Source: Chromobacterium haemolyticum DSM 19808 (GTDB lineage: Bacteria; Pseudomonadota; Gammaproteobacteria; Burkholderiales; Chromobacteriaceae). From it: DNA of 64,000 nt. The notes under the pieces were generated by a model, which was not told where the DNA came from, ran no database searches, and saw only the letters and a program-made list of their open reading frames with translations. Positions 6,346 to 63,129 of this stretch are shown in pieces. Where the stretch lies: contig NZ_JONK01000001.1 in the NCBI RefSeq assembly GCF_000711885.1, forward strand, positions 186,001 through 250,000. The letters run 5' to 3'. The position numbers were made by a program, and so were the translations under genes. Numbering within the stretch: position 1 is the first letter of the stretch; each line of letters begins with the position of its first letter.

Positions 6346-6358
6346 CACGCGTGAAACT

Positions 6359-6377
6359 GCGTTTTGTTAGCCACTCT
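6359..6377 (-). repeat. Family B end fragment
   Basis: CGTTTTGTTAGCCACTCTA matches one end of the family B element at 55831 and 62864 (GTTTTGTTAGCGGCTCTTA). Only this end is recognisable. It again lies right next to a family A copy. Confidence 0.45.
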
Positions 6378-6436
6378 AAAGATAAAAAGATTGCCGGCAT
6401 GAGGCAAGCGTCAACCTGGTGATTACGGCTAGGCGT

Positions 6437-29295: not shown

Positions 29296-29313
29296 CTGGG
29301 GCGGATGTCTTGG

Positions 29314-29455
29314 GACCTGTTCACGATCTCGCGAGCTAAGGTAAGACAAGGCGAAAACGGCTGAAAAAGCGGAATGTACGTGTGGTACGTGAGCATTTCG
29401 AAGCCGGTTTCAACGCTGTATCGCCGACGCGCAGCGGATCGTAAACAGATTCTTA
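29314..29455 (-). repeat. Family A element, copy A2 (inverted orientation)
   Basis: GACCTGTTCACGATCTCGCG at one end and GCGGATCGTAAACAGATTCT at the other. The interior is the reverse complement of the other copies (GACAAGGCGAAAACG, AAAAGCGGAATGTAC). Its right end TTCTTA contributes the TAA stop of pgeF. Confidence 0.85.
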
Positions 29456-35571: not shown

Positions 35572-35712
35572 GAGAACCTGTTCACGATCTGCTGCGCTGC
35601 GGCATACGGCGTTAAAAACAAGCTCAAAATGCTTATGTACCACGTGTACATTCCGCTTTTTCGCTCGTTTTCGCCCTGTCACGCCTTAGCCCGCGAGATT
35701 GTGAACACGTGC
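35572..35712 (+). repeat. Family A element, copy A4
   Basis: GAGAACCTGTTCACGATCTG at the left and CCGCGAGATTGTGAACACG at the right, with interior GTACCACGTGTACATTCCGC and TTTTCGCTCGTTTTCGCC. It lies 10 nt past the stop of the Cys-repeat protein gene. Confidence 0.9.
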
Positions 35713-35748
35713 AGAAAGAGGCTTTTCAAGGATTCTGATGCGGATGGA

Positions 35749-53190: not shown

Positions 53191-53859
53191 ATGAATAAAC
53201 TGATCGTGATGTTTGTTGCATTGGCGCTGGGCAGCGGCAGCCTGTCCGGCTGCGCGAATATGTCCGAAACACAGAAGGACACCGGTACCGGCGCGGCAAT
53301 TGGGGCCGTGGCCGGCGCGGTGCTGGGTGGCCTGACCGCGGGAGGCAATCCGGGCCGTAGCGCGGCCACCGGGGCGGCCTTGGGCGCGGCGCTGGGCGCT
53401 GGCGGCGGTTATTTGTGGTCCAAGCACATGCAGGAGCAGAAGGCCGCGATGGAACAAGCGACCAAGGGTTCCGGCGTTAGCGTCAGCCAGACCGCCGACA
53501 ATCAACTGAAGCTGGATATTCCCAGCGATGTGTCTTTCGACGTGGGGCGTTACGATATCAAGCCCAATCTGCGGCCGATTCTCGATCGTTTCGCCGCCAC
53601 CTTGAATCAGAATCCGGTGACCACGGTGAGCATCGTTGGCCATGCCGATAATACCGGTACCAATGCGGTCAACGACCCGCTATCGCTAAATCGTGCTCGT
53701 GCTACGCGCGACTATCTGACCGCGCGTGGCGTGGCCGAGGGGCGGATCAGCATTACTGGCCGCGGATCGCATGAGCCGGTGGCTAGCAACGCCAGCGCGG
53801 CGGGGCGGGCGAAGAACAGGCGAGTGGAAATCTTCGTGGGCGAGGCCGCGCGCGGCTAA
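53191..53859 (+). CDS. OmpA-family lipoprotein (YiaD-like)
   Basis: 222 residues: lipoprotein signal (LALGSGSLSGCANMS), a Gly-zipper hydrophobic region (GTGAAIGAVAGAVLGGLTAG; further repeats to about residue 75) and a C-terminal OmpA peptidoglycan-binding domain (SDVSFDVGRYDIKPNL, VSIVGHADNTGTNAVN, LSLNRARATRDYL, GRGSHEPVASN). It anchors the outer membrane to peptidoglycan. The TAA stop is the first base triplet of a family A element. Confidence 0.92.
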   Translation: MNKLIVMFVALALGSGSLSGCANMSETQKDTGTGAAIGAVAGAVLGGLTAGGNPGRSAATGAALGAALGAGGGYLWSKHMQEQKAAMEQATKGSGVSVSQTADNQLKLDIPSDVSFDVGRYDIKPNLRPILDRFAATLNQNPVTTVSIVGHADNTGTNAVNDPLSLNRARATRDYLTARGVAEGRISITGRGSHEPVASNASAAGRAKNRRVEIFVGEAARG

Positions 53860-54005
53860 GAACCTGTTTACGATCTGCTGCGCGTCGTGAGACGTCGTAT
53901 GGTGAGTGCCGTTTCGAAATGCTCATGCACCACTCCTACATTCCGCTTTTTCGCTCGTTTTCGCCTTGTCTCGCTCTTGCTCGCGAGATTGTGAACAGGT
54001 TCTAA
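53857..54005 (+). repeat. Family A element, copy A7
   Basis: TAAGAACCTGTTTACGATCT at the left and AGATTGTGAACAGGTTCTAA at the right: nearly perfect 20-bp terminal inverted repeats. Interior GCTTCGAAATG-type and CATTCCGCTTTTTCGC blocks are shared with A4, A8, A9 and A10. The first TAA is the stop of the OmpA-like gene. Confidence 0.95.
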
Positions 54006-54179
54006 GGCGAGGGGTTGGCGGGAGGGGCGGGCGTCGCAGGCGACGCGCCGCCCTTTTTCTTTTGCCGACTCTTGCCGTGCATGTGAGCGCCAATTGTTAA
54101 ATTTCAAATGTAATACGTAATATATTTTAAAGTGCCGCTTTGCTAGAATGTCGGCCACGATAAACGAGCATTTTCAGGC

Positions 54180-55247
54180 ATGGCGACAGACATTTATTCG
54201 CGTATCCGGCAGGCGGCGTTCGAGCTGGTGGGCGAGGGCGTATGGCCGACGGTGCTGGAGGTTCGGGCCAGAATCGGCGCGGGCTCCAACACGACGATCA
54301 ACAACACCTTGAAAGAATGGCGACAGGAGTTTTTGTCGCGGGTGGCGATCTCGTCACGGCGGCCGGATTGGCCGGCCGGCCTGGCCGAAGCTTTCGAACA
54401 GGTATGGCAGCGGGCCTGCGACGAAGCGGATGGGCGGCTGGAGTCTTTGCGTCAGGACGCGGAAACCGCAGTGGCGCAGGCCGCGGCGGAGACTCGAGAG
54501 CTAAAGGACAGCTTGGCTGCGCGCCAGGCCGAGCTGCAATCCGCCTTGCGTGAGCTAGAGTTGCGGGCCGCGCGGTTGGCGGACCTGGAAGGACGCTTGC
54601 AGGGAGAGGAAACCCGGCGTCAGATGTTGGAGCGGGCGGGGCGGGAGCAGGAGGCGAGGCTGGAGCAGGCCCGGAAGGAAATGGCCGAGGTCCGGCGTCA
54701 GGCTGAGCAGCGTCAGCAGGAGCTTGAGGAGCGCGCGGAGCAGAAGGTGCAGGAGGCGCGCGAAGAAGCCGCCAGACGCGAGTCCCTGGCTTATGAGCGT
54801 CTGGAAGGTTTGCGGCTGAGGCTTTACGAGCAAATGGAAGAGGAGCGCCGGGCCATGCAACAGGCGCAGGCCCGCCAGGAAGAGGCTTTGCAACAAAGCC
54901 GGCGCGAGCGGACTCGACTGGAGGGGGAGTGGCGCGACCGCCTCGCAGAGCGCGAGCGAGACAACGGCAGGCTGGAGGCGAGGCTGGAGTGGCTGGAAGG
55001 GCGCAACGCGGCTTTGGAGCAGGACGCGCTGAGGCAGGCTGTGCAATTGGAACAGACCTCGGCACGCTTGCTGGACATGGCCAGCGAGAACAGCCGGCTG
55101 GCCGGAGAGATGAATCTGGGCGCCGAGCGGCAACTGGCGCGTCTGGTGGAGTTGCTGGCCGTCTCGCGTCAGGAGCTGTTGACGTTGGACGAGGCCGGCT
55201 TGCGCGAGTGGTTGGGCCGGCAGCTGCAATTGCCCCTATTAGGCTAA
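54180..55247 (+). CDS. KfrA-like DNA-binding coiled-coil protein
   Basis: 355 residues: an N-terminal KfrA_N-type DNA-binding domain (IYSRIRQAAFELVGEGVWPT, VRARIGAGSNTTINNTLKEW, about 1-60) followed by a very long Glu/Arg/Ala coiled coil (about 75-330). KfrA proteins of IncP plasmids are autoregulators that form filaments; chromosomal relatives are poorly studied. The upstream region contains an AT-rich stretch (TTAAATTTCAAATGTAATAC) that may be its own target. Confidence 0.85.
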   Translation: MATDIYSRIRQAAFELVGEGVWPTVLEVRARIGAGSNTTINNTLKEWRQEFLSRVAISSRRPDWPAGLAEAFEQVWQRACDEADGRLESLRQDAETAVAQAAAETRELKDSLAARQAELQSALRELELRAARLADLEGRLQGEETRRQMLERAGREQEARLEQARKEMAEVRRQAEQRQQELEERAEQKVQEAREEAARRESLAYERLEGLRLRLYEQMEEERRAMQQAQARQEEALQQSRRERTRLEGEWRDRLAERERDNGRLEARLEWLEGRNAALEQDALRQAVQLEQTSARLLDMASENSRLAGEMNLGAERQLARLVELLAVSRQELLTLDEAGLREWLGRQLQLPLLG

Positions 55248-55637: not shown

Positions 55638-55689
55638 ATGGTCGGAAGGTATTTCCAGCGCCGTATCACTGAAGCGCGGCAAGCGCTTG

Positions 55690-55832
55690 GAGCCTATTTG
55701 CGATCTGCCGCGCGTCGGCGATACGGCGTTGAAAACCGCTTCGAAATGTTCATACGCCACCTGTACATTCCGCTTTTTCGCTCGTTTCCGCCTTGTCTCG
55801 TCTTAGCTCGCGAGATCGTAAACAGGTTCTTA
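55690..55832 (+). repeat. Family A element, copy A8
   Basis: GAGCCTATTTGCGATCTGCC at the left and CGCGAGATCGTAAACAGGTT at the right; interior TTCGAAATGTTCATACGCCA and TTCCGCTTTTTCGCTCG. It is directly followed by family B copy B1 with a shared TA. Confidence 0.92.
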
Positions 55833-55947
55833 GAGCCGCTAACAAAACCTCGCAGAGAACCTGAGCCAAGGCGCGCCGACGCTGGCAGTACAAGTGGTAC
55901 GACAAGGAGGCGCAACGCAGGATCAGGGGTTTTGTTAGCGGGTCTTA
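55831..55947 (+). repeat. Family B element, copy B1
   Basis: AGAGCCGCTAACAAAACC at the left and GGTTTTGTTAGCGGGTCTTA at the right are inverted copies. Interior: GGCGCGCCGACGCTGGCAG, TACAAGTGGTACGACAAGG, AGGCGCAACGCAGGATCAGG. Reverse orientation relative to B2. The terminal TTA forms the stop codon of msrC on the minus strand. Confidence 0.92.
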
Positions 55948-56427
55948 AAACAGGCGGGTAAGACCCGCCGCGATGCGTTCCAGGTATTCGGCGTCCACCG
56001 CGTCGAAGCTGGCTAGTTCGCTGGAGTCCACGTCCAGCACCGCGACCACTTCGCCGTCGGCGTTGCGGACCGGCACCACGATTTCCGAGCGCGCGCTGGA
56101 TGAGCAGGCGATATGACCGGGAAAGGCGTCGACATCTTCCACCACCAGGGTGGCGCCGGCCTGCCAGGCGCTGCCGCACACGCCTTTGCCGAAGGGGATG
56201 CGGGTGCAGGCGATTGGGCCCTGGAAGGGACCTAGCACCAATTGTTTGTCCTTGACCAGATAAAAGCCGGTCCACAGCCAATCGAAGCTGCTGTGCAAGG
56301 CGGCGCAGAGATTGGCCAGCGCGGCGATTTGGTCCGTCTCGGATTCAATCAGCGCCAGCGCCTGCGGCAATAGGGTTTGGTAGCGCTCTTGTTTGTCTGC
56401 GCCGTGGACGATCAGGTGTTCTGCCAT
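55945..56427 (-). CDS. msrC: Free methionine-(R)-sulfoxide reductase (GAF domain)
   Basis: 160 residues, a single GAF domain that reduces free Met-R-sulfoxide. The three redox cysteines are visible in PIACTRIPFGKGVCGSAW and GHIACSSSARSEIVVPV, and LDVDSSELASFDAVDAEYLE closes the domain. ATG 56427 (MAEHLIVHG) is chosen because it begins homology; the frame is open 18 codons further. The stop codon TAA is part of family B copy B1. Confidence 0.93.
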   Translation of the reverse strand: MAEHLIVHGADKQERYQTLLPQALALIESETDQIAALANLCAALHSSFDWLWTGFYLVKDKQLVLGPFQGPIACTRIPFGKGVCGSAWQAGATLVVEDVDAFPGHIACSSSARSEIVVPVRNADGEVVAVLDVDSSELASFDAVDAEYLERIAAGLTRLF

Positions 56428-56479
56428 GGGTATGTCGGGGTGTGGCTTGGGAAGGCGATAGCATACACAGCGGACGGAC

Positions 56480-56510
56480 AAAAAGAAAACGCCGCCCGGC
56501 GGGGCGGCGT
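56480..56510 (-). terminator. Terminator of phbB
   Basis: Minus strand ACGCCGCC-N6-GGCGGCGT followed by TTTTCTTTTT, 24 nt past the phbB stop. Confidence 0.9.
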
Positions 56511-59914: not shown

Positions 59915-60460
59915 ATGACACAAGATCAAATGAACCTCATCTGGCTCGACATGGAAATGACGGGCCTGAATCCTGAGACCGACCGCATCATCGAAGTCGC
60001 GATGATCGTTACCGACAGCCAACTGAACGTGGTGGCGGAATCGCCGGTGCTGGTGATCCACCAGCCGGACGAGGTGTTGGACGGCATGGACGACTGGAAC
60101 AAGAATACCCATGGTAAAAGCGGCCTGATCGAGAAGGTCAAGGCCTCCACCTTGGGCGAAGCCGAGGCCGAGCAGATACTGCTGGACTTCATGGCTCGGT
60201 ACGTGCCGCCGCGGATCACGCCCATGTGCGGCAACACCATTCATCAGGACCGCCGATTCATGGTGCGCTGGATGCCCAAGCTGGAGGAGTATTTCCACTA
60301 TCGCAACCTGGATGTGTCTACCTTGAAAGAGCTGTGCAAGCGCTGGAAGCCGGAAGTGGCGCGTGGCGTGGTCAAACGCGGCAAACACGAGGCGCTGGCG
60401 GATATTCTGGAATCCATTGAGGAGTTGCGTTACTACCGCGAGCATTTCCTCAAGCTCTAA
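59915..60460 (+). CDS. orn: Oligoribonuclease
   Basis: 181 residues, the same length as E. coli Orn. DEDDh exonuclease that degrades dinucleotides, including pGpG from c-di-GMP turnover. Catalytic residues: WLDMEMTGL (D, E), [11 protein letters not shown] (D) and GKHEALADI (H, D). The end YYREHFLKL is diagnostic. The start ATG 59915 gives the family length. The TAA stop is the first triplet of a family A element. Confidence 0.96.
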
Positions 60461-60606
60461 GAACCTGTTTACGATCTGCTGTGCGTCGTGGGACGGCCCA
60501 TGGTGAGTGCCGCTTCGAAATGCTCATGTACCGTGTGTACACTCCGCTTTCTCAGCGGTTTTCGCCTTGTCTCGCCCTGGCTCGCGAGATCGTAAACGGG
60601 TTTTAA
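60458..60606 (+). repeat. Family A element, copy A9
   Basis: TAAGAACCTGTTTACGATCT and AGATCGTAAACGGGTTTTAA ends; interior CTTCGAAATGCTCATGTACC and TTTTCGCCTTGTCTCGCCC. It lies between orn and pgi; its first TAA ends orn. Confidence 0.95.
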
Positions 60607-60704
60607 GAGTCAGTGCCAAGCGGCTCAAGCGGTAATCGGGGGGCGGCTCCATGATGGGGCTTGCTCCTTTACTTTTGGCGAAATTTATTCCATCGGCAAT
60701 CTAT

Positions 60705-62365: not shown

Positions 62366-62866
62366 ATGCAAGAAAGCCTGGAGTTGGCCCGCCGTTTAGG
62401 CGAGCGTTTGCTGGCGGCGGGCGAGAGTGTCGCCGCCGCCGAGTCCTGCACCGGCGGCATGATCGCCGCGGCGCTGACCGACATTGCCGGTAGCTCGGCT
62501 TGGTTTGGCTACGGCGTGGTCACTTACAGCAATGAGGCCAAGCAAGGTCTGCTGAAGGTGGAAGACAGCGCCTTGCGGGAGCACGGCGCTGTCAGCGAGG
62601 CGGTGGTGCGGCAGATGGCTGCCGGGGTGCAAAGCCTGTCCGGCGCGGATTGGAGCGTGGCGGTGTCCGGCGTGGCCGGCCCCGGCGGAGGCACGGCAGC
62701 CAAGCCGGTGGGGCTGGTTTGGTTCGGCATTGCCGGTCCAGATGGCTGGAATGAGGCGTTCAGCTGTCGCTTTGACGGTGATCGAGGCCAGGTGCGCACG
62801 CAAACGGTGATGCGCGCCTTGCAGCGCTTGGATGAGTTGGTGGCCGAGCGTAGCCGCTTGGCTTAG
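62366..62866 (+). CDS. pncC: NMN amidohydrolase PncC (CinA C-terminal domain)
   Basis: 166 residues, a stand-alone CinA_C domain that deamidates nicotinamide mononucleotide. Motifs [31 protein letters not shown] and [18 protein letters not shown]. It lies 11 nt after pgi. The TAG stop is within the first bases of family B copy B2. Confidence 0.94.
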
Positions 62867-62981
62867 ACCCGCTAACAAAACCCCTGATCCTGCGTTGCGC
62901 CTCCTTGTCGTACCACTTGTACTGCCTGCGTCGGCGCGCCTTGGCTCAGGTTCTCTGCGAGGTTTTGTTAGCGGCTCTTAG
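62864..62981 (-). repeat. Family B element, copy B2
   Basis: GACCCGCTAACAAAACCCCT at the left and GAGGTTTTGTTAGCGGCTCT at the right; interior GTCGTACCACTTGTACTGCC and TGCGTCGGCGCGCCTTGG. Reverse complement of B1 over its length. Directly followed by family A copy A10 with a shared TA. Confidence 0.92.
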
Positions 62982-63114
62982 AGCCTGTTCAAGATCCGCT
63001 GCGCGTCGTGAGGCGCCTCGCGGTGAGTGCGGCTTCGAAATGCTCATGTACCACGCGTACATTCCGCTTTCTCAGCCATTTTCGCCTTGGTTCGCTAGAT
63101 CGTGAACACGCCCT
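62979..63114 (+). repeat. Family A element, copy A10
   Basis: GAGCCTGTTCAAGATCCGCT and GCTAGATCGTGAACACGCC ends, interior CTTCGAAATGCTCATGTACC and ACATTCCGCTTTCTCAGCC. It lies between B2 and the 3-prime end of xerC. Confidence 0.9.
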
Positions 63115-63129
63115 TGGCTCGCAGGGCGT

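Follow-up and report, generated by a model that had tools for sequence, protein, structure and literature searches.

Family B copies in the window

The window, that is, the whole 64,000-nt stretch of Chromobacterium haemolyticum DSM 19808 DNA analyzed here, carries two full copies of a short repeated element, family B. Each copy is 112 bp long. One lies at 62866..62977 on the + strand and the other at 55833..55944 on the − strand, as read directly from the sequence and supported by matches in the same genome. The initial annotation had proposed two full copies in opposite orientations; this is correct, and exact bounds can now be given, each copy being flanked by TTA. Both copies are part of a longer inverted repeat (132 nt, 96% complementary). 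Direct reading also agrees with the ends and interior that had been described: the ends are GA[C/G]CCGCTAACAAAACC, and the interior has TTGTACTGCCTGCG near CGCCTTG, with TTGTACTGCCAGCG instead in the copy at 55833. The + copy opens with the terminal inverted repeat GACCCGCTAACAAAACC (62866..62882, +), identical to the ends of an insertion sequence (IS), and closes with GAGCCGCTAACAAAACC, as read on the − strand (62961..62977), which also matches IS ends. Between the ends lies a conserved hairpin core, at 62884..62952 (+) and 55858..55926 (−), scoring 84.4 and 80.1 bits, respectively, with covariance model R1.

The flanking duplications are shared with genes and with other repeats. To the left of the + copy, TTA (62863..62865) gives the TA of the cinA (PF02464) stop codon TAG (62864-62866), and the element itself contributes the G. 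The TTA on its right (62978..62980) doubles as the left TTA of the next family A element. The − copy is bounded on the left by a TTA (55830..55832) that doubles as the right TTA of the preceding family A element, and on the right by a TTA (55945..55947) that reads TAA on the − strand, the stop of a GAF-domain gene (55945-56481). Each full copy thus meets a family A element across one common TTA.

A single family B end had also been placed at 6359. The end is real, spanning about 6350..6376 and followed by TAA at 6377-6379; by eye, against locus L248, it fits a second subfamily and not the end of the full copies. Separately, 54180-55247 encodes a protein with a KfrA_N domain (PF11740, 4e-27). 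This DNA-binding domain is of the plasmid type, and the contig is 460 kb long.

Family A elements are about 150 bp long with ends like GAGCCTGTTTACGATCT, and lie at 62981-63127, 55683-55832, 53856-54006, 29308-29448, 60457-60607, and 35573-35723; two of them abut family B copies. Three family A copies match a second covariance model, R2, weakly (E 0.0014, 0.0034, and 1). The first two matches cover the interiors at 55718..55804 (+) and 29338..29424 (−) and are not among the R1 matches. Family A may be a remote relative of the elements that carry the hairpin core.

Family B in the host genome and its family

Family B is a multicopy element with the features of a miniature inverted-repeat transposable element (MITE): it is short, has inverted ends, is flanked by a target duplication, occurs in many copies, and has no transposase gene. 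In its own genome, BLAST returned 41 matches, one of them merely 24 nt long, and the covariance model returned 76 core matches at E<=0.01, of which 73 were at E<=0.001 (150 of 5694 candidates scored). These numbers far exceed chance. Across the bacterial family, family B was matched in 49/61 genomes and 7/10 genera (E<=0.001). We examined 30 loci of the own genome. Both ends could be measured in 28 of them; of the other two, one showed no end match and one was truncated by its contig. Identical 3-nt flanks were found in 23 of the 28 copies (TTA in 14, TAA in nine). Lengths were 111-113 bp in 24 copies, 134 bp in three, and 98 bp in one.

The own genome holds further variants. The 134-bp form (L024, L026, and L027) has a 22-nt insertion near the apex and is reminiscent of the long and short forms of Correia elements. 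Loci L229, L230, L232, L234, and L248 represent more subfamilies with other ends, for example GAGCGGCTAACAAAACT and ends in AAAATCC.

Gene context was taken from crude reading-frame calls at loci L001-L059 of the family, 56 of which had flanking frames (3/59 were omitted). Twenty elements lay between tandem genes, 13 between convergent and seven between divergent genes, and 16 inside a called frame. A called stop codon fell <=10 nt from an element end in 26/56 loci. The target TTA/TAA is a stop codon on one strand, so that a stop is kept after insertion.

An insertion sequence shares the ends of family B

In the draft own genome, many occurrences of the family B end sequence are about 350 bp or less from where a contig stops, a pattern that a multicopy IS would produce. 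We read nine of these contig ends, and all start with GACCCGCTAACAAAACC after TTA or TAA. Beyond GACCCGCTAACAAAACC, eight show one or other end of a single IS; the ninth halts after 18 nt. Both kinds of IS end, with the same terminal sequence and target duplication as family B, are therefore present at contig ends of the own genome, while the full-length copy is known from a genome of the same genus. There, a complete IS of 863 bp (L108:991-1853) is flanked by TTA, and its terminal 17 nt are those of family B. We take this IS to be of the IS5 type. Its two reading frames match DUF4096 (PF13340, 1.5e-25) and DDE_Tnp_1 (PF01609, 5.8e-13); DUF4096 is a domain of the IS4/5 family (Pfam). Based on the shared ends, it is probable that this IS moves family B in trans. 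The hairpin core was not seen in the IS by eye; family B therefore has only its ends in common with it.

The distribution of the IS is narrower than that of family B. Its 5' end was matched in 19/61 genomes of the family (E<=0.001), some of these matches being partial, compared with 49/61 for family B. For three family genomes with no IS-end match (G051, G059, and G002), the pairs listed included none of IS size in which these ends face inward, and the IS therefore appears to come and go.

The core is a covarying hairpin

The core consists of outer, middle, and apical stems with internal loops between them. Three alignments were used: A1, with 26 cores (eight from the own family and 18 from the order scan); A2, with 111 matches from 96 loci (104 distinct rows, and including 25/26 A1 loci); and A3, with 69 matches that the class and phylum searches gave at 47 loci, 23 of these loci being already within A2. 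R1 was built from A1 and R2 from A2.

We show that the stems covary in all three alignments. In A1, 13/23 pairs change on both sides, and covariation is 0.352 compared with 0.153 (sd 0.011) in shuffled alignments and at most 0.085 in slid structures. In A2 and A3, whose rows were fitted to the model structure, covariation is 0.526 compared with 0.162 (sd 0.007) and 0.610 compared with 0.159 (sd 0.010), respectively; in A2, paired cells make up 89.4% compared with 68.2 (sd 0.6), and 21/23 pairs show changes on both sides. Slid structures score 0.04-0.12 across the three alignments. One measure, the number of further standard pair types, gives the A3 structure no support (60 observed; 486/500 shuffles reach 60) and is weaker in A2 (27/500 shuffles reach the observed value) and A1 (9/500). 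The middle stem of the Correia core is unpaired in the common register, as seen in L104.

Several unpaired bases in A3 are conserved at 0.97-1.00. Because the stems vary with their complementarity mostly kept, and several bases of the internal loops do not change, the core strand is probably read in folded form. Palindrome-correcting template switching could also keep the pairing, although it should erase the mismatches of the internal loops too. A peptide reading of the core was set aside, since the apical loop (4-7 nt) varies in length by single bases.

The core extends across Pseudomonadota with different ends

The hairpin core is not confined to the order. A profile search of Neisseriales genomes had been suggested; our model searches found the core in the order, the class, and the phylum. 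With R1 at E<=0.001, and counting the own genome, matches occurred in 157/399 genomes and 79/158 genera of the order and in 59/369 genomes and 50/272 genera of the class. With R2 at E<=1e-4, matches occurred in 70/299 genomes and 43/154 genera of the phylum. Outside the class lay 39 of these 70, 29 of them in one family code (f244). The E-values of both models rest on short calibrations, and some weak single matches may be chance. A direct BLAST search with the window element across the 399 genomes of the order, own family included and two candidates scored per genome, gave matches at E<=0.01 in 66 genomes and 45/158 genera. The common ancestor in Neisseriales that had been proposed is thus too narrow a frame, and an origin in Neisseriales only was rejected on these searches across order, class, and phylum.

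The same core is housed between different ends. By eye, differing inverted repeats surround it at seven loci (L089, L095, L099, L100, L102, L103, and L104), and it has ends of its own at L197 (Cupriavidus) and L224 (Neisseria sp.) and in genomes G102 and G713. Ends resembling those of family B are found on relatives in Methylobacillus and Acidovorax. Named records contained one exact core pattern of 27 nt in 45 stretches, and its carriers comprise Neisseria gonorrhoeae, N. viridiae, other Neisseria, Chromobacterium, Vogesella, Crenobacter, Methylobacillus, Acidovorax, Cupriavidus, Chitinibacter, and others.

Two-hairpin forms also occur. At 19/47 loci, two cores lie back to back with their starts 106-111 nt apart; the copies read in G102 and G713, which have ends of their own, measure about 270-285 bp. 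When single copies are folded, two arms extend from an outer stem. At L163, L170, L179, L293, L298, and other loci, an outer stem and two long arms surround a short CCGAAGG-type hairpin.

It is reasonably probable that Correia elements belong, as a single branch, to a superfamily that spans Pseudomonadota. Whatever the ends, its members would be defined by a hairpin core of the form GCGTTGC-stem-CTTG-apical stem-CTGCG-stem-GCGCCTTG. This core would be a module complete in itself, under selection for some function, that has come to be enclosed by the terminal repeats of unrelated insertion sequences and exists in one-hairpin and two-hairpin forms. In the open-licence literature, to the extent that its text was available, we found no report of such a superfamily or of the Correia core outside Neisseria.

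DNA or RNA

The hairpin may act as DNA or as RNA. If it acts as RNA, a copy within a transcript would fold, be bound or cut, or steady the messenger, and selection on such use would maintain the core. Structured RNAs typically show covarying stems together with conserved loops, and Correia elements are reported to be bound by RNase III in mRNA (PMC2649163, PMC2229807). However, wobble pairs are scarce on both strands. For the 14 freely varying pairs, with one row per locus (90 loci), we counted 1049 Watson-Crick (WC), 11 GU, 23 AC, and 152 other pairs; as a reference, the acceptor stems of 15 tRNA genes have 100 WC and five GU. The 20 pairs of A3 gave 1140 WC, 14 GU, 45 AC, and 126 other pairs. 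There is no wobble signature in these counts for an RNA of the + strand, which was set aside.

The excess of AC over GU on the + strand (45 to 14 in A3) is equivalent to wobble on the complementary strand. It would fit an RNA of the opposite strand and counts to that extent against a DNA role. Sign tests by locus gave 36 to 8 (A2) and 22 to 5 (A3), with rows that are non-independent and with one edge column supplying 19 (A2) and nine (A3) of the AC cells. The pair counts disfavor an RNA of the + strand and lean weakly to the other strand or to DNA.

Under DNA folding parameters, the complementary strand has the better fold in 108/120 loci, which suits an RNA of that strand, but with RNA parameters the strands are about equal (the + strand folds better in 64 of the 120 loci and the − strand in 53). 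Nor is there a marked orientation bias toward tandem genes, between which 13 elements have the same orientation and seven the opposite one. Rfam gave no gathering-level match in the window, nor on any element in 17 loci, which also speaks against RNA. Below the gathering level, matches touched elements at L104 (AaHKsRNA41) and L170 (mir-561 and M23), and gathering-level matches fell outside the cores at L089 (5_ureB_sRNA) and L160 (tRNA). Overall, we favor a DNA hairpin that helps the 112-bp element to join its ends, at just short of even odds, and regard an RNA role as less likely.

Relationship to Correia elements

Work on Correia elements (CREE/NEMIS), regarded as a feature peculiar to Neisseria, goes back to the 1980s. 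The initial annotation had noted a resemblance of family B to these elements, with shared blocks in the same order, and this is confirmed. N. gonorrhoeae, N. viridiae, and Neisseria sp. MAGs each supplied two Correia-type copies for alignment with the window element, and one other copy brought the number to seven. Local alignment scores were 64-80, compared with shuffle maxima of 35-49, and none of 1000 dinucleotide shuffles reached the observed score in any of the seven comparisons. The proposed check, similarity outside the ends beyond chance, therefore comes out in favor of kinship, and the similarity is located in the interior.

L104, which combines Correia ends with the core, was a hit of the BLAST search across the order, at 81% over 53 nt and E 6.6e-7. 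Since N. viridiae L228 has an identical aligned core, the family code of L104 (f44) is taken as Neisseriaceae.

The ends give a different result. Shared ends had been claimed as well; the 24-nt ends alone are at chance level for six of the seven copies. The seventh, with an AACAAAA end variant, matches the family B ends at a score reached by 2/2000 shuffles. AACAAAA is one of two published Correia end variants (PMC2649163), and a link to the family B ends through it is conceivable on this sequence match.

Could family B be Correia proper, either taken up from Neisseria or passed down from an ancestor in Neisseriales? The strong similarity of the core and the fit of one end variant (2/2000) are what such an origin would produce, but the ends are at chance for 6/7 copies, the target duplication and lengths differ from those given in PMC2649163 and PMC3898611, family B-like ends occur in Methylobacillus and Acidovorax, and the core is found throughout the phylum. 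This origin is already largely contradicted, and we consider it very improbable. Family B is a relative of Correia and not a Correia element proper, as judged from the sequences, because the ends are at chance (6/7) and the target duplications differ. Chance or convergence of G+C-rich palindromes, which would draw on palindromic repeats being common and on covariance models that may catch unrelated hairpins, is hardly credible as the source of the shared core given 0/1000 shuffles in 7/7 comparisons, the 45 stretches of named records with the exact 27-nt pattern, and unpaired A3 bases at 0.97-1.00 with failing slid structures; for the Correia link, the shuffles already contradict it.

IS1106, an IS5-family element, has been suggested as the mobilizer of Correia elements (PMC2649163, PMC5039591, PMC3898611), and the 2009 paper among them describes the mobilizing mechanism as undetermined at that time (PMC2649163). 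We looked for an autonomous Correia partner by scanning 30 of 68 transposase matches in eight f44 genomes for Correia ends. Two of the 30 had any Correia end (one a single end, one an outward pair), there was no inward pair around a transposase, and the candidates were rejected. In four f44 genomes, there was no inward pair of exact Correia ends 600-2500 bp apart among the pairs listed. Genome G103 (f44, 1.83 Mb) has inward pairs of Correia ends of 155 bp (C1:840044-840198) and 68 bp (90899-90966), and seven of 107-109 bp; these lengths are near the published Correia length classes.

A proposal for family B

We propose, with a probability of roughly 0.6, that family B, a 112-bp non-autonomous transposon (MITE), is mobilized in trans by an IS5-type element that shares its ends and TTA flanks, and that the conserved hairpin of its interior acts as DNA. 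The 863-bp element with DUF4096 and DDE_Tnp_1 frames would supply the transposase. The interior does not derive from that IS; the hairpin is common to Correia and to many other MITE-like repeats of Pseudomonadota, each with its own ends. In the least certain step, the hairpin would act through cruciform extrusion or through folding of single-stranded DNA. It could then draw together both ends of a very short element, and its fixed loop bases might be presented to a host factor. Under this proposal, the core plus any suitable ends would make a mobilizable element. Counting against it, the IS is absent from most genomes that carry the MITE.

The kinship of Correia with Chromobacterium elements that share their ends with a recognizable IS provides a tractable relative in which trans-transposition and the role of the core can be studied. 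Furthermore, if the hairpin is a module moved between transposon ends, MITEs would be under selection for an internal folded motif. Such selection is not predicted by the usual view, in which MITEs are decayed insertion sequences.

Comparison with known systems

Family B and Correia elements are alike in size class (112 bp compared with 104-108 bp), inverted ends, lack of genes, and high copy number. Their core blocks also occur in the same order, and the characteristic Correia core is present in family B. They differ in several other respects, for which we refer to the Correia descriptions in the papers cited. The 26-bp Correia ends read TATAG[CT]GGATTAA... (PMC2649163), whereas those of family B read GASCCGCTAACAAAACC. 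Correia elements duplicate a TA target (PMC3898611), whereas 23/28 family B copies are flanked by TTA or TAA. Most Correia elements are 104-108 or 153-157 bp long, whereas 24/28 family B copies are 111-113 bp. A possible further difference concerns the IHF site (long form) and the end promoters of Correia elements: scans by consensus alone matched the IHF consensus in neither of the two window copies and detected nothing like a sigma-70 site around the copy at 62866 (62800-63050). Finally, Correia elements are described as found only in, or unique to, Neisseria (PMC2649163, PMC5039591).

The second comparison is with REP, BIME, and REPIN sequences. REPs are described as 20-40 bp long with a GTAG or CGTC tag and as often associated with RAYT transposases (PMC3733652). 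Like these, family B is a repeated extragenic hairpin, and some relatives also occur as inverted pairs (19/47 loci). Unlike them, family B ends in inverted repeats of 17 nt and is flanked by target duplications. A REP identity was set aside. Family B is an IS5-associated relative of Correia inside a wider hairpin-core superfamily.
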